A stretch of 64,000 nucleotides of DNA, from NCBI GenBank assembly GCA_039801085.1, contig JBDRTY010000002.1, positions 1-64,000 of the forward strand, given 5' to 3'. Under the pieces are notes generated by a model that was not told the DNA's origin, searched no databases, and saw only the letters and a list, made by a program, of their open reading frames with translations. Origin of the DNA: a candidate division WOR-3 bacterium. Its GTDB lineage: Bacteria; Hydrothermota; Tepidihabitantia; Tepidihabitantales; Tepidihabitantaceae. Within the stretch, counting starts at the first letter, position 1. Each line of letters opens with the position of its first letter. Positions 34,545-43,166 of this stretch are shown here, one piece after another. The position numbers and the translations under genes are program-made.

Positions 34545-35909
34545 TTAGCGGCCACCGATTACCACATTCCTGATTCTGATGTGCGGGGCACCGGTTGTGA
34601 CCGGCAGCGGCGACTGTCCATCCTTGCCACAACCGCCGAGCCCGCCGTGAATCATCAGGTCATTACCGATGGCATCAATATTCCTCAGGGTCTCAAACAC
34701 ATTGCCGGCAAGGGTCGCATCCCGGACCATCTTCGTGAGCCTGCCATTCTCAATCCGGTAAGCATACTGGGAAGAAAAGGTGAATGTTTCCAGCTCGGTC
34801 ATCCCGCCCCGGCTGCCCACGACATAAAGCCCGTCTTTGACCTCAGCCAGCATCTCATCAAATCGCCGGTTCTGGGGCACGATGTAGGTGTTACTCATCC
34901 GCACAATCGGAGCAAAACGGTAACTGATCGCCCGGGCATTACCGGTCACACCTTCCCCCATCAGATAGGCGGTATGCCGGCTGTGCAGGTGGCTGGCAAT
35001 CACCCCGTTTTTGATCAGGTCGGTGCGCTGCGCCGGCACACCCTCGTCGTCATAGCCGTAACTGCCGTTTTCACCCGGCAGGGTCGGATCATCAACAATT
35101 GTCAGCTCCTCAACCCCGTACCGGGTGCCGATCCGCATCAGCTGCTTCAGCCGGTCATTTTCGGCAATATGGTCCGCCTCACTCAGATGGCCGAACGCCT
35201 CATGGGCAAATATCCCGCCGAGCAGCGGATCAATGATCACCGTATATGTCCCGGCAGTCACCGGCTCCGCCTTCAGCAGGTCAATCGCAATTCTTGCCAC
35301 CCGTTCAACCATACCTTCCCTGCCCCGAAGCGACTCAAACCCGGCAGCCCGGCCAAAGGACTCTCCATACTGCTGAATGTTGGCTCCATCCCGGGCAATC
35401 GCCTGACAGGAAAACCCGGTGCGCACAAACTCCTGCTCAATGTAACGGTCCTCGCTGGAATACCAGTAAACGGTCCGGTGGCTGTCCAGATATGATGCTA
35501 CCGTACTTACTATCTGCTTCGGCGCCAGAAGCAGCCGGTTGTAATCGTGAATCAGCTGCTGCTTTTCCGCAAGCGGCACCAGCCTCGGGTCCTCATGTCT
35601 GGGCAACCGGATAATCTCGTCAAGTGCCGGCAGAAAGATCAGACCGCCATCCCGCGGCGGCAGCTCCGCTGCCTGAATTGCCAGCTCATCTGCCAACTCC
35701 TTCAGCGACTCATCCACGGTATTAAAACTGGCAATCACCCAGTTTCCCCGATAAAAAACCCGCAGACACCCGCCCCGCTCAAAACCGGTGCCAATGTCCT
35801 CAAGCTCCCGGCCGCGGTAGACAATCCTGGTGGTTTCACTTTCCTCAATCCGGATATCGGCATAATCCACCGCCAGCCCGGCAAGCACCTCTTTAAGAAA
35901 CGCCTTCAT
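34545..35909 (-). CDS. tldD: TldD metalloprotease subunit
   Basis: This 454-residue catalytic subunit carries the zinc motif in HEAFGHLSEAD near residue 225. GGRGGMTELETFTFSSQYAYRIENGRL-type family blocks and GGLGGCGKDGQSP appear toward the C terminus. It heads the tldD-pmbA operon, with its own predicted promoter and with a hairpin-terminated RNA just upstream. Confidence 0.93.
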   Translation of the reverse strand: MKAFLKEVLAGLAVDYADIRIEESETTRIVYRGRELEDIGTGFERGGCLRVFYRGNWVIASFNTVDESLKELADELAIQAAELPPRDGGLIFLPALDEIIRLPRHEDPRLVPLAEKQQLIHDYNRLLLAPKQIVSTVASYLDSHRTVYWYSSEDRYIEQEFVRTGFSCQAIARDGANIQQYGESFGRAAGFESLRGREGMVERVARIAIDLLKAEPVTAGTYTVIIDPLLGGIFAHEAFGHLSEADHIAENDRLKQLMRIGTRYGVEELTIVDDPTLPGENGSYGYDDEGVPAQRTDLIKNGVIASHLHSRHTAYLMGEGVTGNARAISYRFAPIVRMSNTYIVPQNRRFDEMLAEVKDGLYVVGSRGGMTELETFTFSSQYAYRIENGRLTKMVRDATLAGNVFETLRNIDAIGNDLMIHGGLGGCGKDGQSPLPVTTGAPHIRIRNVVIGGR

Positions 35910-35965: not shown

Positions 35966-36003
35966 AAAAAGGGCGATGCACCGTGGGAACTGGCGCATCG
36001 CCC
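35966..36003 (-). terminator. Intrinsic terminator of the small RNA
   Basis: Stem GGGCGATGC/GCATCGCCC (36003-35995 and 35979-35971) followed by TTTTT at 35970-35966 on the minus strand. Confidence 0.8.
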
Positions 36004-36087
36004 AATTTATCTGTCCCGGCTGCGGAATCCAGCCGAAACTCAGAGCGCGAACCCCCTGTATTCCCTGTTCAGGCTCGGTCAAAGGCA
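35966..36087 (-). ncRNA. Predicted sigma-54-controlled small RNA
   Basis: A sigma-54-type promoter at 36113-36098 would start transcription near 36087. About 120 nt downstream, a 9-bp GGGCGATGC/GCATCGCCC stem (extendable by three pairs, loop AGTTCCCAC) with a TTTTT run makes an intrinsic terminator. Between lies another 6-bp stem, CGGCTG/CAGCCG (36035-36017). No ATG-started open frame with a ribosome binding site lies in the transcript. The gene sits directly downstream of a sigma-54 activator on the same strand, the arrangement seen for GlrR-GlmY or LuxO-Qrr systems. I know no family for the RNA itself. Confidence 0.6.
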
Positions 36088-36097
36088 CTTATACTTA

Positions 36098-36113
36098 TGC
36101 AAATCATGTGCCA
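36098..36113 (-). promoter_or_regulatory. Sigma-54-type promoter (-24/-12)
   Basis: The minus strand reads TGGCACATGATTTGCA, matching TGGCAC-N5-TTGCA with the invariant GG and GC dinucleotides at the correct 10-nt interval. An AT-rich tract lies immediately upstream, and it is the only intergenic match I found. It lies about 110 bp beyond the stop of the sigma-54 activator gene. Confidence 0.75.
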
Positions 36114-36151
36114 TTTATAAATATTTAACTAAACTCTTTGTTTTTAAATAG

Positions 36152-36216
36152 TTGCAGAACAGGGCAATTCTCACGCCATGCTTAATAAAACGCCAGTGCT
36201 GCTTATTTTTTCAGCA
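36152..36216. promoter_or_regulatory. Candidate activator-binding inverted repeats upstream of the sigma-54 promoter
   Basis: Two imperfect dyads lie 40-105 bp upstream of the -24 box: TGCTG-N10-CAGCA at 36197-36216 and TTGC-N8-GCAA at 36152-36167. Distances fit enhancer sites of sigma-54 activators. They are short enough to arise by chance. Confidence 0.35.
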
Positions 36217-36224
36217 AATCTGGG

Positions 36225-37832
36225 CTAACTTATGCCGTATTCTCTGATTTTCTTCCTCAGGGTATCGCGATGGATTCCCAAAAGCGCTGCTGCCCGGCTC
36301 TGGTTGCCATTACATTTTATGAGTGCCTCCTGGATTGCCAGCTTTTCCAGCTCTGCCAGTTTGAGCGACCCGACAATCTGCTCAATGCCGGTCACAGTGC
36401 GGGCTTTAGGTCCGGGTGCAGACGGGGTTACATGTGCCTGAAACTGGGCAATGGCGGTAGCGATATGTCCGACGCCGATGATGTGCGTGTTTTCATACTG
36501 TGCCCGGTCATACGCCTGATTGATAATTGCCCGCAGGGTCCGGACATTGCCGGCTGCAAACAGCGGTCTTTCTCCGGAAATATGCTGGAGCACAATCTGC
36601 GTGAGAAACCGCACCGCGGTCGGGTCAGACTGCAGCTTCTGCCGGACATAGGGATTTCTGTTCCGTTCGGTTACAAAGAACTCAAAAAACTCGCCGATAT
36701 CATCCTCAACCGTCTGCGGCTTTTCCCCGGACCAGCGCTCGGCAACCGAAGGCACCGTAATGCAGTGGTGAACCAGCCGGGTGTAGAAGTCGCTCCGGAA
36801 CCGCTGCTGCAGCTCCTCAATCGTCCGGTTTGTTGCGGTTATGATCCGGACATCAACCTCCTTCTCCACTGAACTCCCCAGCCGCTTAATCCGGTGGTAC
36901 TCAATTACCCGGAGCAGTTTCTTCTGCAGCTCCTGGTCAATCTCGCCGATCTCATCCAGAAACACGGTCGACCCCCGGGCGGTCTCAAAGATTCCGGCAC
37001 GCGGTGTCCGCGCATCGGTGAAGGCGCCGGTTTCATGGCCGAAAAGTTCATCAATGCACAGATTCTTGTCCATCGTGGTCATCTGCACCGTCAGCACATT
37101 CCTTCTCTCCGGCACGCGCTCGGAATAACGGTAACTCAGCCGGTGAATCGCCTGGGCGACAAGCTCCTTGCCGGTGCCGGGCGGACCGATCACGAGCACG
37201 ATACTGTCAGTTGGGGCGGTGCGCTCAATTTCCCGCACGAGTGCCGCCATCCGCCGGGACCTGCCGACCACCATATGATGCGTCTCCCGCCAGTAAAACC
37301 GCTTATCCTCGGTAAGTGGTCTGAGCGCACACAGATCCAGCTTTTGCAGCACCGCCAGCTCCTCTGGCTCCTCACCTGCAGGACCGGCGAAATGACATTC
37401 CCCCACACCGGGGACCTGACAGATATCAATATACCGTTCCGGCGACTGCAGCACCTCAGCGCTCAGGTGAAAGACCACCGGTGCAATCTGCTCAATGTCA
37501 AGATGACGCAGATGGTAATAGATGATAAACCCCTGAAGCCGGCGGACATCCATTACCAAACCGGCAGGACGCAACCCCAGAGGAAAAACCGCCAGCTTCT
37601 GCTCGCTGTCCACCGCGGAAAAATCGACTCCGAGTACGATTCCGGCAACATGGACCCCGGCATTCTGCCGGTACCATTTTCTAATCGCCTCCAGACAGTC
37701 ACAATAGACAAACTCAAACTCCTGGCCCAGCCTCCCTTTATCAAACTGACGGGCATATTCCACCAGGGTTTGAAACCTGCCCGGTCTGTCATAGACCACA
37801 AGCACAACTGGACGCTGTCCCCGACTGCTCAT
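36225..37832 (-). CDS. Sigma-54-dependent transcriptional activator (NtrC family)
   Basis: This 535-residue regulator has an N-terminal sensory region (1-180; beta-alpha pattern, no recognisable phospho-acceptor), an AAA+ domain (about 187-430) with Walker A GPPGTGKE (216-223) and Walker B VFLDEIGEID (290-299), and a Fis-type helix-turn-helix at 497-535 (N-Q-S-R-A-A-A-L-L-G-I-H-R-D-T-L-R-K-K-I). The sigma-54 contact loop reads GAFTDA (269-274) where GAFTGA is usual. The linker between the AAA+ and HTH domains is longer than normal. Preceded by TTGAGC-N16-TATAAT. The signal sensed is unknown. Confidence 0.9.
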   Translation of the reverse strand: MSSRGQRPVVLVVYDRPGRFQTLVEYARQFDKGRLGQEFEFVYCDCLEAIRKWYRQNAGVHVAGIVLGVDFSAVDSEQKLAVFPLGLRPAGLVMDVRRLQGFIIYYHLRHLDIEQIAPVVFHLSAEVLQSPERYIDICQVPGVGECHFAGPAGEEPEELAVLQKLDLCALRPLTEDKRFYWRETHHMVVGRSRRMAALVREIERTAPTDSIVLVIGPPGTGKELVAQAIHRLSYRYSERVPERRNVLTVQMTTMDKNLCIDELFGHETGAFTDARTPRAGIFETARGSTVFLDEIGEIDQELQKKLLRVIEYHRIKRLGSSVEKEVDVRIITATNRTIEELQQRFRSDFYTRLVHHCITVPSVAERWSGEKPQTVEDDIGEFFEFFVTERNRNPYVRQKLQSDPTAVRFLTQIVLQHISGERPLFAAGNVRTLRAIINQAYDRAQYENTHIIGVGHIATAIAQFQAHVTPSAPGPKARTVTGIEQIVGSLKLAELEKLAIQEALIKCNGNQSRAAALLGIHRDTLRKKIREYGIS

Positions 37833-37956: not shown

Positions 37957-39330
37957 ATGCCGATTTTTACTGCGGTTTTTCTTCTAACCGGGCTGATTTC
38001 CGGTCCTGGTCTGACCAGGACACAAACTGCCTGCACCGCAGCACCGCGCTTCACCGACAACCAGGCCTCATTTGATATGTATCAGGACGAGATTGTAATT
38101 GACACCTGCTCCATAGTGGTGCTTGCGGGTGCTCAGGACTCTGCTGGCAACATCTATGCGCTCGTCGTCACCCCGGAATCAATTCTGAAAATCTACCGCT
38201 CTTCAGATCGCGGCGGTTTCTGGGAGGTGATGCTGACAATGCCGGTGCCGGCTCCAGTCAGCCAGGCAGAACTCCTGATCGCCGGAACTGACCCGGCAAA
38301 AATCTTCATATTTTTACTGACAACGGCTGCAGGCGGAGACCTTTGGCTGATGCGGACCACCTCCGATTTCACAGACCGGGACTGGCTGCCGGTAGCGGTC
38401 GGTCCGGATACGATCGACCGGTTTACCGTTACAGTTGACAACAACAGCCGCCCCTGTCTCTACTGTCTCTATGTCCGGGAACACCGGACCGGACCCAATG
38501 GCCGGTTCACCCGCTCGCTGGATCTCGGCAGCACCTGGGAACCGTTTCAGGATTTCTACAACTGCTCCCAACCCTGCCTTTACTTCGGTGCCGGCACCCT
38601 CCACTGCGCCTGGTGCTATGCGATTGACAATCGCCAGCTCCATTACACCCGGAACCGGCACTTTGGTGCGCCCGGCCGGTGGGAGCCCCTGCAGGTGCTT
38701 TATGCCACTGGCGAACGGTGCCTGACACCGGTGGTGGTTCAGGCAGAAACACTTCCTCCCTGGCGGGCACCGGTCTGGATCGCCTGGAGCGTTGCCCGGC
38801 GCGATACTGAGATGCTGGACCTGCTCATCACCTGCTCAACCGACGGTGGGAGCACATTTTCGACGCCGGTAAACCTCGGTGAGCCCTTCATTGATGAATG
38901 GTGGCCCAGCCTTGCCGCCACCAGCACCACGGTCAACCTGCTTTACAATGCGGGTGCCGGCGGTGAAAATGACCCGACGGTGATTTATTACCGGTATGCC
39001 CGCTGCTATGCACCCCAGCTGCTGAGCTCTCCGCTGAAAATTAACGATTCGCGGGCTAATCCAGCGGTCTCTGGTGCCCGACCCCGGGCGCTCGGTTCTG
39101 GCGCCCTGTTCAGCCATTATGGAGCAGGCACAACCGCCCGTGGTCTCTACTTCTACCGGCTCACACCCCGATTTGCGCTCCAACCCCGCACTCCAAAACC
39201 GGCATCAACCACCAGCATGATTCTTGATCCTGCCGGCAGAAGGGTAAACCTGACCGGCTCCCGCCGGAAAGCCGGGGTTTATTTTCTATCCGAAGGGGAC
39301 CGCTGGCGCAAACTACTGATTCTGCGTTAG
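37957..39330 (+). CDS. Secreted BNR/sialidase-like propeller protein with sorting module
   Basis: This 457-residue protein has a signal peptide (about 1-25), then several repeats of the Asp-box kind (Y-R-S-S-D-R-G-G-F-W-E; S-L-D-L-G-S-T-W-E; C-S-T-D-G-G-S-T-F), as in six-bladed sialidase or BNR propellers. The last 50 residues are a short sorting-like module (ILDPAGRRVNLTG ... GVYFLSEGDRWRKLLI). The arginine triad of sialidases cannot be assigned, so an exo-glycosidase role is not shown. Cysteine content is unusually high. Confidence 0.75.
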   Translation: MPIFTAVFLLTGLISGPGLTRTQTACTAAPRFTDNQASFDMYQDEIVIDTCSIVVLAGAQDSAGNIYALVVTPESILKIYRSSDRGGFWEVMLTMPVPAPVSQAELLIAGTDPAKIFIFLLTTAAGGDLWLMRTTSDFTDRDWLPVAVGPDTIDRFTVTVDNNSRPCLYCLYVREHRTGPNGRFTRSLDLGSTWEPFQDFYNCSQPCLYFGAGTLHCAWCYAIDNRQLHYTRNRHFGAPGRWEPLQVLYATGERCLTPVVVQAETLPPWRAPVWIAWSVARRDTEMLDLLITCSTDGGSTFSTPVNLGEPFIDEWWPSLAATSTTVNLLYNAGAGGENDPTVIYYRYARCYAPQLLSSPLKINDSRANPAVSGARPRALGSGALFSHYGAGTTARGLYFYRLTPRFALQPRTPKPASTTSMILDPAGRRVNLTGSRRKAGVYFLSEGDRWRKLLILR

Positions 39331-39601: not shown

Positions 39602-39934
39602 ATGAGCTGCTGTAATTGCGGGTCAGGGTATGAGGATTATTATTGGCGACATCCGGGTGGCAAGTTGCGGGAAATTGGGGCTGATAAACTTACCGATGCC
39701 GAACTGTTGGCGATTCTCATTTCATCAGGAATTAAGGGAAAAAGCGCGGAAAAAATCGCAAATGAGCTTCTTGAGAGATACGGCTCGCTTGAAGGCTTAG
39801 CAAACCAGCCGCTTGAAGGGTTGCTACAAATTAAAGGTCTGGGTGATCGGAAAATCATCCGCATCGCTGCGGCATATGAATTAGCCCGACGGTTAATGGA
39901 GAAAGGAAAGTCCTGTGAGCCCAGAAGGAAATAA
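39602..39934 (+). CDS. RadC N-terminal HhH domain protein, lacking the JAB/MPN domain
   Basis: This 110-residue protein matches only the N-terminal helix-hairpin-helix part of RadC/UPF0758: K-L-x-E-x-G-A-D-K-L-T-D-A-E-L-L-A-I-L-I and LLQIKGLGDRKIIRIAAAYELARR. The usual C-terminal JAB/MPN metalloprotease-like domain (about 120 residues) is absent, and a short C-N-C-G start precedes the domain. It overlaps the following DNA methyltransferase gene by 20 bp, so the two are coupled. It could supply DNA binding for the modification enzyme; that is an inference. A shortened radC relic is the alternative. Confidence 0.75.
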   Translation: MSCCNCGSGYEDYYWRHPGGKLREIGADKLTDAELLAILISSGIKGKSAEKIANELLERYGSLEGLANQPLEGLLQIKGLGDRKIIRIAAAYELARRLMEKGKSCEPRRK

Positions 39935-42900
39935 GAATACAAAATTAACCGAAAAGCCGGCGCGAATACCGGACATCCGGAAAACCTCCCGCTGGGATGA
40001 AAGTATTAATCAATACCTCCAGCAGGTGAAAGAATTGGCAAGTGAATCCGCCCGCTCTCATTGTTTCATAATGCTGGTAAAAGACCTGCTTGGCACTCAG
40101 CCCGGCTTTATTGAAGAATACCTTGCCGGAATTGAGAAATACCTGAGAGTCAAACAGAGGGACGGAATTCTCAGGGGTGAGGCGGACAATTTATTCGGCA
40201 ATGTGATAATTGAGTTTGAGTCAGACATCACCAAAAAACGCCCTGAAGCCGAAAGCCAGTTGCGGCGATATGTTGCCATCGCCTGGTCTCAGGAAAAGCC
40301 AGAGTCTCGTCGCCCCTATCTCTGCATTGCCACTGATGGCATTCGCTTTCTCACTTACACACCGGCAATAGCGGACTCAAATCAGCAGGAGATAGTACCG
40401 GAGGATGTTCGTCTCAATCTCCTCGGGGAGGTAGACTGGACTCGCCTCAATTCTGATGAGATATATTACTGGCTTGACCGCCATTTCCTGCGCCAGGAAG
40501 ATCTCAATCCAACAACCGAATTTATCGTCCGGGACTTCGGGATAAAAAGCCATGCCTATCAGACCGCAACTACTGCCCTTCTCAACCTCTGGCAGAAGAT
40601 TAAATCTCAGAGCGAATCGGCAGTAATATATGAAACCTGGAACAAATACCTGCGAATTGTTTACGGCAGCACGGTAGCCGATGATGAACTGTTTATCCGC
40701 CACACCTATCTCGCCACCTTGGCAAAACTACTTGCCTGGATGCGCCTAACCCAAAGCACCAGTCTGCCGGATGATGCCCAGATTATCGAAATGCTCGAAG
40801 GTCTGTTATTCAAAAAGCATGGAATTGAAAACTTTATTGAAGAGGACTTCTTCTCCTGGGTGGCGCGCCCCAATGCCCAGAAGGTCGGGGTTGGGGTTGT
40901 CCGCCGGCTCTTCAGCCTTTTACAGAACTACAATTTAAGGGAATTATCTGAAGATGTTCTGAAATCGCTCTATCAGGAACTTGTTGATCCTGAAACCCGC
41001 CACGATTTGGGTGAATTCTATACCCCAGACTGGCTTGCCCACCGGATGGTCAATTATCTCCTCAATAAAAATCCTGCAGGCAGCGTCCTTGACCCTGCCT
41101 GCGGCTCGGGCACATTTCTCTATCTCACGATTAAGGAAAAACGGCGAAGATTGGGCAACACCCAGAAGACGCTTTATCACATCCTTAACTCGGTCTGCGG
41201 TGTTGATGTCCACCCTCTGGCGGTGATCATCGCCAAGACCAACTTTATCCTTGCCCTTGGCGACCTGCTCCAGAAAAGAAAAGGGCACATCGTCATTCCG
41301 GTATACCTTGCCAACACATTAAGGCTGCCAGAGCGGATGATGGGAAGTCCTTTATTCATCCTGCCCCTTGAAGGGCAGGAGTTCCCCATACCGGAGGAGT
41401 TGTTACAAGATACCAGCCTTTACGACCAGAGCGTAGAACTGGCGAAAGAGTTCGCCCGGCAGAACAAGGGCAAAAATATCTCTGAAGAAGCATTTCATAA
41501 CTTCCTCCTCGCCCAGAATTTTCCCTATGCCCACAATGAAACTCTTGTCAACTCAATCTTTAAGCTTGTTGAAACCCTCAAGGTATTTATTGATAAAGAC
41601 CGCGACACCATCTGGGCGTTCGTCCTGAAAAACATTTACAAACCGCACTTCCTTTTAAATAAATTTGACTTTGTTATCGGTAATCCGCCATGGATTGCCT
41701 TTCGTGCTCTTGAACCCAATCACCAAAAATATCTCAAAACCCGTATAACTAATATCTACAAATTAACTACTGGGGCACCAGAAAATATTCCTAATCTTGA
41801 GGTCGGAACTTTCTTCTTTATTCGTGCCTCGGACCTATATCTTAAGCTCGGTGGCACAATCGCCTTTGTCCTGCCAAAAAGCATCTTCAGTGCTGACCAG
41901 CACGACGGCTTGCGCCGGCGCACATTTGAATTAACCGGAAGCGGGGAAAAGCTCTACTGGCAGGAGGTGTGGGACTGTGAAAATGTCACACCCCTTTTTA
42001 ATGTCCCTGCCTGTGTTCTGATTGCTGAAAAAAGAGAAGTGATAAAAACCCCCAGTTCTCCCTCCCCTTTTGCGGGCGAAATTCTTGAGGGTGAGTTATC
42101 CCGCAAAAACGCCTCACTCCAAGAGGCTGAATACGAATTAAAGGTAACAAAAACCCGGTTCTATCTGCATATCCGCGGCAAACGCTCATTTTGGGCAGTT
42201 GATAAGGCTGTTGAGTTAAAGGGACAATCTTATTACATAAAGAAATTCCTTAGGGGTGCCGAGCTTGATCCGCGTCCTTTTTGGTTTGTAGAAGTCAAGC
42301 CTTCACCATTAGGCTTTAACCCTGACCTGCCACCACTTGAAACCGCTGAGCGGGCGAAGAAAGAGGCAAAAGATGCTTATAAAGGGCTTGTTCTGAAAGG
42401 CACGGTAGAAAGCCGGTTTCTCTATGCCAGCCTCCTTTCAACCGACCTTCTGCCCTTCGGACACCTTGACTATCGCCTTGTTGTCCTGCCAATTGAACCG
42501 GCAGACGACCATTACAAACTCATTGATGCTGGCGAAGCCCGCAAACGGGGGTTTCTCCATCTTGCCCAGTGGCTGGAGAAAGTTGAAAAGGAGTGGGAAA
42601 AAAGGCGATCGGTAAAGGCAAGGAGTTTTACCGTCTTACAATGGCTGGACTACCGAAAAAACCTGACCAACCAGAATCCAAAAGCAAGATATAGAGTGAT
42701 ATATAACACATCTGGAACAATTTTAACCGCAGCGGTAGTTGAAAATGAAAATATTTCTTTTAAATTTGGCAACCAAGAAGTTAGAGCTCAAGGGTTTATT
42801 GCAGATACAGTAACCTATTGTTACGAAACTAATGATAAACAATCGGCCTATTCGCTTGCGGCAATACTTAATTCACCATATCTAGACCATTTAATAAAAC

Positions 42901-43166
42901 CGATGCAGAGTCGGGGACTATGGGGGCCAAGGCATCTCCACAAGAAACCGCTTGAATTTCCAATTCCTAAATTTGATGAAAGAAACCCAATTCATCTCCG
43001 CCTATCCGAACTAGGCGAGAAATGCACTGAGAAGGTCAGACAATGGCTTGACCAGGGTGGTGCCAAGGGTATCAAGGATATCGGCCGATTGCGGGCATTG
43101 GTGCGCCAGCTCCTCGCCCCGGAACTCGCCGAAATCGATCAGCTGGTGCAAAAATTGCTGGGTTGA
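39915..43166 (+). CDS. Large N6-adenine DNA methyltransferase, one-chain restriction-modification type
   Basis: This 1083-residue protein has an N-terminal PD-(D/E)xK-like region (about 60-150, GEADNLFGNVIIEFES), where the expected E-x-K reads E-F-E, so the nuclease may be altered or inactive. It also has a helical linker, a gamma-class methyltransferase core with motif I DPACGSGTFLY and the catalytic NPPW of motif IV, and a C-terminal target-recognition-like half (TaqI/Eco57I type). The start is GTG 39915 with GAAAGGAAAG. Composition is more AT-rich than the surroundings, consistent with horizontal transfer. It methylates an unknown target. Confidence 0.88.
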   Translation: MSPEGNKNTKLTEKPARIPDIRKTSRWDESINQYLQQVKELASESARSHCFIMLVKDLLGTQPGFIEEYLAGIEKYLRVKQRDGILRGEADNLFGNVIIEFESDITKKRPEAESQLRRYVAIAWSQEKPESRRPYLCIATDGIRFLTYTPAIADSNQQEIVPEDVRLNLLGEVDWTRLNSDEIYYWLDRHFLRQEDLNPTTEFIVRDFGIKSHAYQTATTALLNLWQKIKSQSESAVIYETWNKYLRIVYGSTVADDELFIRHTYLATLAKLLAWMRLTQSTSLPDDAQIIEMLEGLLFKKHGIENFIEEDFFSWVARPNAQKVGVGVVRRLFSLLQNYNLRELSEDVLKSLYQELVDPETRHDLGEFYTPDWLAHRMVNYLLNKNPAGSVLDPACGSGTFLYLTIKEKRRRLGNTQKTLYHILNSVCGVDVHPLAVIIAKTNFILALGDLLQKRKGHIVIPVYLANTLRLPERMMGSPLFILPLEGQEFPIPEELLQDTSLYDQSVELAKEFARQNKGKNISEEAFHNFLLAQNFPYAHNETLVNSIFKLVETLKVFIDKDRDTIWAFVLKNIYKPHFLLNKFDFVIGNPPWIAFRALEPNHQKYLKTRITNIYKLTTGAPENIPNLEVGTFFFIRASDLYLKLGGTIAFVLPKSIFSADQHDGLRRRTFELTGSGEKLYWQEVWDCENVTPLFNVPACVLIAEKREVIKTPSSPSPFAGEILEGELSRKNASLQEAEYELKVTKTRFYLHIRGKRSFWAVDKAVELKGQSYYIKKFLRGAELDPRPFWFVEVKPSPLGFNPDLPPLETAERAKKEAKDAYKGLVLKGTVESRFLYASLLSTDLLPFGHLDYRLVVLPIEPADDHYKLIDAGEARKRGFLHLAQWLEKVEKEWEKRRSVKARSFTVLQWLDYRKNLTNQNPKARYRVIYNTSGTILTAAVVENENISFKFGNQEVRAQGFIADTVTYCYETNDKQSAYSLAAILNSPYLDHLIKPMQSRGLWGPRHLHKKPLEFPIPKFDERNPIHLRLSELGEKCTEKVRQWLDQGGAKGIKDIGRLRALVRQLLAPELAEIDQLVQKLLG

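Follow-up and report, generated by a model that had tools for sequence, protein, structure and literature searches.

The locus considered here raises the question of whether a sigma-54 activator of a candidate division WOR-3 bacterium controls a small RNA encoded beside it. In the 64,000-nucleotide stretch of DNA that was analyzed (the window), the activator gene is followed on the same strand by two dyads, a -24/-12 promoter element and a short region that ends in a terminator hairpin (Table 1). We consider it highly probable that these elements form a two-part regulatory unit in which the neighboring activator and RpoN switch on a regulatory RNA of ~122 nt. Sequence and comparison between genomes show the elements of this predicted unit, namely the family of the activator, the dyads, the promoter, the terminator, the conservation of the RNA and the presence of rpoN. 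The activator would bind both tandem dyads, which lie immediately past the end of its gene, and assemble into an ATP-hydrolyzing ring. About 100 bp away, this ring would open RpoN-RNA polymerase waiting at the -24/-12 promoter, from which a free-standing noncoding RNA would be made, ending at the intrinsic terminator; the RNA would then regulate other genes post-transcriptionally. The comparison drew on 18 genomes of the bacterium's own family (f1), 28 of its order and 147 of its phylum. Among named relatives, the protein closest to the activator, at 91% identity, is encoded by candidate division WOR-3 isolate SKW181.

Table 1. Coordinates of the predicted regulatory unit and the adjoining gene in the window
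Feature	Position	Strand	Description	Basis
Sigma-54 activator (bEBP)	36225-37832	-	535 aa	Pfam, orthologue alignment, AlphaFold models and Foldseek
UAS1	36201-36215	-	15-bp dyad GCTGAAAAAATAAGC, GCTG-N7-AAGC, centered at about -121	Sequence; dyad enrichment
UAS2	36180-36194	-	15-bp dyad GGCGTTTTATTAAGC, GGCG-N7-AAGC, centered at about -100, 21 bp from UAS1	Sequence; dyad enrichment
Sigma-54 (-24/-12) promoter	36098-36113	-	TGGCACATGATTTGCA	Sequence, genome pattern count, equivalent sites in orthologous loci
Predicted noncoding RNA	35966-36087	-	About 122 nt; conserved motifs GACCGAGC (36080-36073) and GCGCTC (36048-36043)	Covariance model, identity, fold
Internal hairpin H2	36013-36039	-	GTTTCGGCTG/CAGCCGGGAC, loop GATTCCG, 10 pairs	Helix kept in other genera
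Intrinsic terminator	35966-36003	-	12-pair stem, 9-nt loop, TTTTT	Fold; covariation
tldD	34545-35909	-	Next gene downstream; context gene, probably not part of the unit	Pfam

The activator and its divergent receiver-like domain

The activator is an NtrC-like bacterial enhancer-binding protein, as the first-pass annotation had proposed. Pfam identifies an AAA+ sigma-54 interaction domain at residues 189-355 (Sigma54_activat, 2.8e-48) and a C-terminal Fis-type helix-turn-helix at residues 492-532 (HTH_8, 9e-14). The divergent receiver-like domain, at about residues 1-170, has no Pfam match and is not recognized as a receiver by sequence searches; it becomes visible in predicted structure, where Foldseek matches the N-terminal 173 residues to receiver domains with E down to 3.6e-5. 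The full-length AlphaFold model aligns end to end with the structures of NtrX, NtrC1 and LuxO. When the orthologues are aligned by eye to CheY, the phospho-acceptor position is occupied by Gly68 in the window activator, by Asp mainly in genera g6 and g7 and by other residues elsewhere, and the conserved receiver Lys is absent from every orthologue row. The phosphorylatable receiver of group I activators such as LuxO and GlrR was not found in the window activator. Since the receiver-like domain lacks the usual phosphorylation residues in this lineage, the activator is probably not controlled by a standard histidine kinase.

The sigma-54 contact loop is also unusual. In the orthologue alignment it reads GAFTDA in place of GAFTGA in the window activator and throughout g1 and g5 (GAYTDA in G005), and GAFTGA or GAYTGA elsewhere, including g6. 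The same Gly-to-Asp change, G266D, removed repression by the N-terminal domain of Escherichia coli NorR (PMC2941729), and the natural variant may behave like this de-repressed form. The difference is that G266D was made in the laboratory, in a GAF-domain protein, whereas GAFTDA is the natural form in g1 and g5. RtcR had the second-best NCBIfam score, and the corresponding RNA-repair reading was dropped because that score (188 bits) is far below the cut-off of 650 bits and the N-terminal fold is receiver-like. A second sigma-54 activator is encoded in the window's own genome at locus L002 (C1, about 453695-456710), with the contact loop GAATGV rather than GAFTGA; about 170 bp after it lies TGGCACATTTTTTGCA, followed by a short ORF beginning MFNRGVERVMQI.

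Promoter, dyads and predicted RNA

The promoter had been annotated as TGGCAC-N5-TTGCA and was found at exactly that position, with the -24 GG and the -12 GC spaced 10 nt apart and a predicted +1 at 36087. The 1.91-Mb genome holds five TGGCAC-N5-TTGCW sites versus one match to the reversed control pattern. The remaining sigma-54-like sites lie before the short protein gene at L002 and before transporter genes at L006, and two look coding. A search for rpoN, proposed as a check on the first reading, found the gene in the window's own genome and in 25 of the 28 genomes of the order; the draft assembly G009 gave no match. With its -24/-12 element, in a genome that encodes RpoN, this is a predicted sigma-54-dependent transcription unit.

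The two dyads do lie at enhancer distance, as had been claimed, and their class is enriched in orthologous regions. Between activator and promoter in 18 such regions, and with at most one mismatch allowed, GCCG-N7-CGGC dyads number 17, versus 1.1 in shuffles (maximum 4), and pairs spaced 20-21 bp apart are present in the window, G004, G005 and G006. Binding of these dyads by the neighboring activator is what we infer from their position.

The predicted transcript agrees in length with the earlier estimate of about 120 nt; its terminator, described there as a 9-bp hairpin, proved to have a longer stem of 12 pairs. The terminator reads GGGCGATGCGCC-AGTTCCCAC-GGTGCATCGCCC-TTTTT, with the hairpin at 36003-35971, and was missed by a simple terminator scan because its loop is 9 nt long. 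Nine of its 12 pairs have changes on both sides among relatives, and 97% of cells are paired. The fold of the whole RNA has a z-score of -2.8 relative to shuffled sequence. Helix H2 is retained with differing sequences in other genera (GGUCC/GGACC, GUCCCC/GGGGAC, AAUCCCC/GGGGAUU). The covariance model aligns it poorly; by hand it has 6-11 pairs in most genomes, with differing sequences in G000, G008 and G016, and in G001, G002 and G005 it is no better than shuffled arms, so that it is supported in about half of the genomes. A further putative helix, H1 (GAGC/GCUC), hardly varies among relatives. Rfam 15 gave no match to the predicted RNA at the gathering score and none at E up to 5, which places it outside the Qrr and GlmY/GlmZ families. 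As judged by sequence, the RNA is a new family.

Conservation of the unit and alternative readings

The activator has an orthologue in 17 of the 18 f1 genomes, often at 47-58% identity; the exception is the draft assembly G016, which has a partial RNA match. In all 13 f1 genomes that carry both parts on one contig, the sigma-54 promoter and the RNA lie directly downstream of the orthologous activator, in the order -24/-12 element, RNA bearing GACCGAGC close to its 5' end and an internal GCGCTC, and terminator. The two motifs appear as variants in G005 and G001, and dyads are visible in most of the 13. Contigs that end early keep the first parts of the layout: a perfect GCCGAAATAAACGGC follows the G026 activator just before the contig end, and some further f1 contigs end inside the RNA.

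A covariance model was built from 13 sequences, including the window RNA, which consequently scores as a member of the training set (E 1.6e-28, 97 bits). The model matches 17 of the 18 f1 genomes, including G015 (141 bits) and G009 (93.5 bits) from outside the training set; it misses G013, where the contig ends in the stretch downstream of the activator. G009 has activator and RNA on separate contigs; its RNA adjoins tldD and still has TGGCATAAAATTTGTA upstream. Standard pairs make up 92% of the modeled cells in the 17 aligned matches, one row of which is a spurious reverse-strand terminator match. Among the 129 other WOR-3 genomes there were only two weak matches at E below 1e-4 (G047 and G072), both terminators after protein genes and rejected as false positives, and the model found no RNA in families f2-f5. 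The activator search over all 147 genomes was positive in f1 (all but one) and f3-f5, and weakly so in four members of the class. The activators of f3 and f5 have no RNA that the model recognizes, and those of f3 are followed by another gene or by unrelated sequence. The covariance search that had been suggested thus recovered the RNA almost exclusively where the activator is present, and promoter, RNA and dyads are all kept beside orthologous activators across the family. The sequence-based outcomes that would have refuted the first reading, a genome lacking rpoN and a promoter and hairpin not conserved next to orthologous activators, were therefore not observed.

The RNA is also better conserved than its surroundings. 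In 10 of 11 within-genus pairs its identity is 67-98%, versus 43-75% for the flanks, taken as the 100 bp ahead of the promoter and the 80 bp that follow the terminator. Seven of these pairs have 87-98% identity in the RNA, with flanks mostly about 50%, a value typical of gapped alignments between unrelated sequences; another three have 67-72% versus 43-54%. The window RNA is 90% identical to that of G004, with flanks at 75% and 70%. The pair G000-G005 stands at 50% throughout, RNA and flanks alike.

Several other loci were noted during the survey. G012 carries a diverged second copy of the RNA at L123 (C298:4834-4972; 27.5 bits) whose promoter is degraded; it may be a duplicate in decay. In G027, of family f5, an intergenic sigma-54 promoter at L163:1393-1610 (C29) follows two perfect GCCAAAAAAATTGGC dyads 21 bp apart and precedes a predicted RNA about 85 nt long whose terminator is strong (L163:1527-1610). 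This RNA is unlinked to the G027 activator, has no Rfam match and no recognizable similarity to the f1 RNA; judging from its layout, the locus looks like the same circuit in trans. At L147 of the same genome (C10), downstream of position 1500, a sigma-54 promoter opens onto a long leader that contains CACCGAGCC and possible hairpins, with a ribosome-binding site and ATG coming next; the leader looks structured and has no Rfam match.

The choice of the neighbor as the acting activator rests on position, because each genome encodes several other sigma-54 activators; in G000, six of the seven matches to the activator query are such proteins. The RNA could be real and sigma-54-dependent but driven by another activator, or by several, with the neighbor not dedicated to it. 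The separation of RNA and activator on different contigs in G009 would fit this explanation, as would the activation of qrr1 in Vibrio fischeri by SypG as well as LuxO (PMC10162802). We regard it as unlikely, since the dyads sit between activator gene and promoter throughout the family and genomes with the RNA almost always have an activator of this orthologue group. The first-pass annotation had preferred a regulator dedicated to its neighboring RNA. Position and dyads support this well, but dedication is not proved, given the G009 arrangement and the f3 and f5 activators without a model-found RNA.

A sigma-54 start at 36087 could alternatively produce a 5' leader of tldD, with the terminator acting as an attenuator subject to signal-dependent read-through. 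In g1 and g5 the RNA does sit immediately before a codirectional tldD, and this includes G009, whose RNA is away from the activator. However, the same RNA precedes unrelated genes in g6, g3 and g2 (glycosyltransferase/ABC transporter, GNAT-like protein, TPR protein), a separate promoter-like TTGACA-16-TATTCT for tldD is located past the terminator, and the terminator is the helix with the most covariation, all of which makes a leader quite improbable. It is very unlikely that the RNA encodes a small peptide. Short open frames starting from TTG or GTG exist in some members, but frames and lengths differ between genera, conservation tracks the stems and short motifs rather than codons, and no ORF of at least 12 codons is present in four g6 RNAs and one g2 RNA. 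Comparison thus shows coding capacity to be absent in part of the family. A chance promoter-like string and terminator between two genes, for which the single control-pattern match in the genome might speak, is barely conceivable when more than a dozen genomes with diverged flanks repeat the layout of promoter, dyads and RNA at that position.

Mode of action and relation to known circuits

Action of the predicted RNA in trans by pairing with mRNAs is the weakest step of the model, and we give it about an even chance. The best candidate for pairing in g5 and g6 is the H2 loop, which there holds CUCACCAGUC, a possible anti-Shine-Dalgarno stretch. The loop is shortened in the window genus and CUCACCAGUC is missing, and a duplex scan of the RNA against 46 window gene starts, with unrealistic energies, gave nothing convincingly better than shuffled RNA; trans pairing, although the likeliest mode of action, can therefore be put forward with only moderate confidence. 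Neither Hfq (PF17209) nor CsrA (PF02599) was found in seven genomes of the family, the window's genome included, so the RNA is unlikely to use Hfq or to be a Csr sponge, and both the CsrB-type and the Hfq-type readings were rejected.

Well-studied pairs of a sigma-54 activator and its own small RNA, Qrr and GlmY, come from gammaproteobacteria, and Qrr RNAs use Hfq. The first-pass annotation had likened the locus to LuxO-Qrr and GlrR-GlmY, and the likeness of design holds: the activator has the domain order and fold of LuxO, and the RNA lies beside its locus with a matching enhancer and promoter. In LuxO-Qrr, too, a receiver-AAA+-Fis activator adjoins a sigma-54-dependent small RNA with upstream enhancers, and of 21 Vibrionaceae representatives all but one have a putative qrr next to luxO (PMC10162802). 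The two systems differ in that qrr is opposite in orientation to luxO whereas the WOR-3 activator and RNA share one strand, that the conserved Asp whose phosphorylation activates LuxO is replaced by Gly in the window activator, and that the WOR-3 RNA has no Rfam match, Qrr included, and occurs in a family in which no Hfq was found. In Enterobacterales the receiver-type sigma-54 activator GlrR/QseF likewise drives a small RNA, GlmY, whose gene adjoins the activator locus and has activator sites upstream of it (PMC8745638, PMC6075780). There, the RNA precedes qseEGF; in WOR-3 the activator precedes the RNA and was not noticed to have an adjacent histidine kinase gene, and the RNA is unrelated by Rfam.

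The lineage had been thought to lack any description of such a system, and our literature search likewise found none in WOR-3, nor any paper joining WOR-3 with small RNAs or sigma-54; most subscription journals lay outside the search, making this weak evidence of absence. We tentatively propose a separately evolved WOR-3 circuit, which would combine a new RNA family without Hfq or CsrA with a pseudo-receiver activator (carrying a de-repressed GAFTDA loop in the window genus), the signal reaching the RNA without histidine-kinase phosphorylation. A family-wide case with an unrelated RNA in a deep uncultured lineage suggests that this design has more than one origin and can operate in the absence of Hfq. 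The locus also supplies a concrete predicted regulatory RNA whose promoter and enhancers are placed at single-base resolution, from a group on which the literature searched held no small-RNA papers.

Two features upstream of the activator are also worth recording. The ORF at 37957-39330 (+), divergent from the activator and without a Pfam match, is its most constant upstream neighbor across the family. At 39602-43166 (+), a 110-aa RadC-like N-terminal fragment, which seems to be a truncated RadC, is followed by an overlapping 1083-aa protein resembling a restriction-modification methylase.
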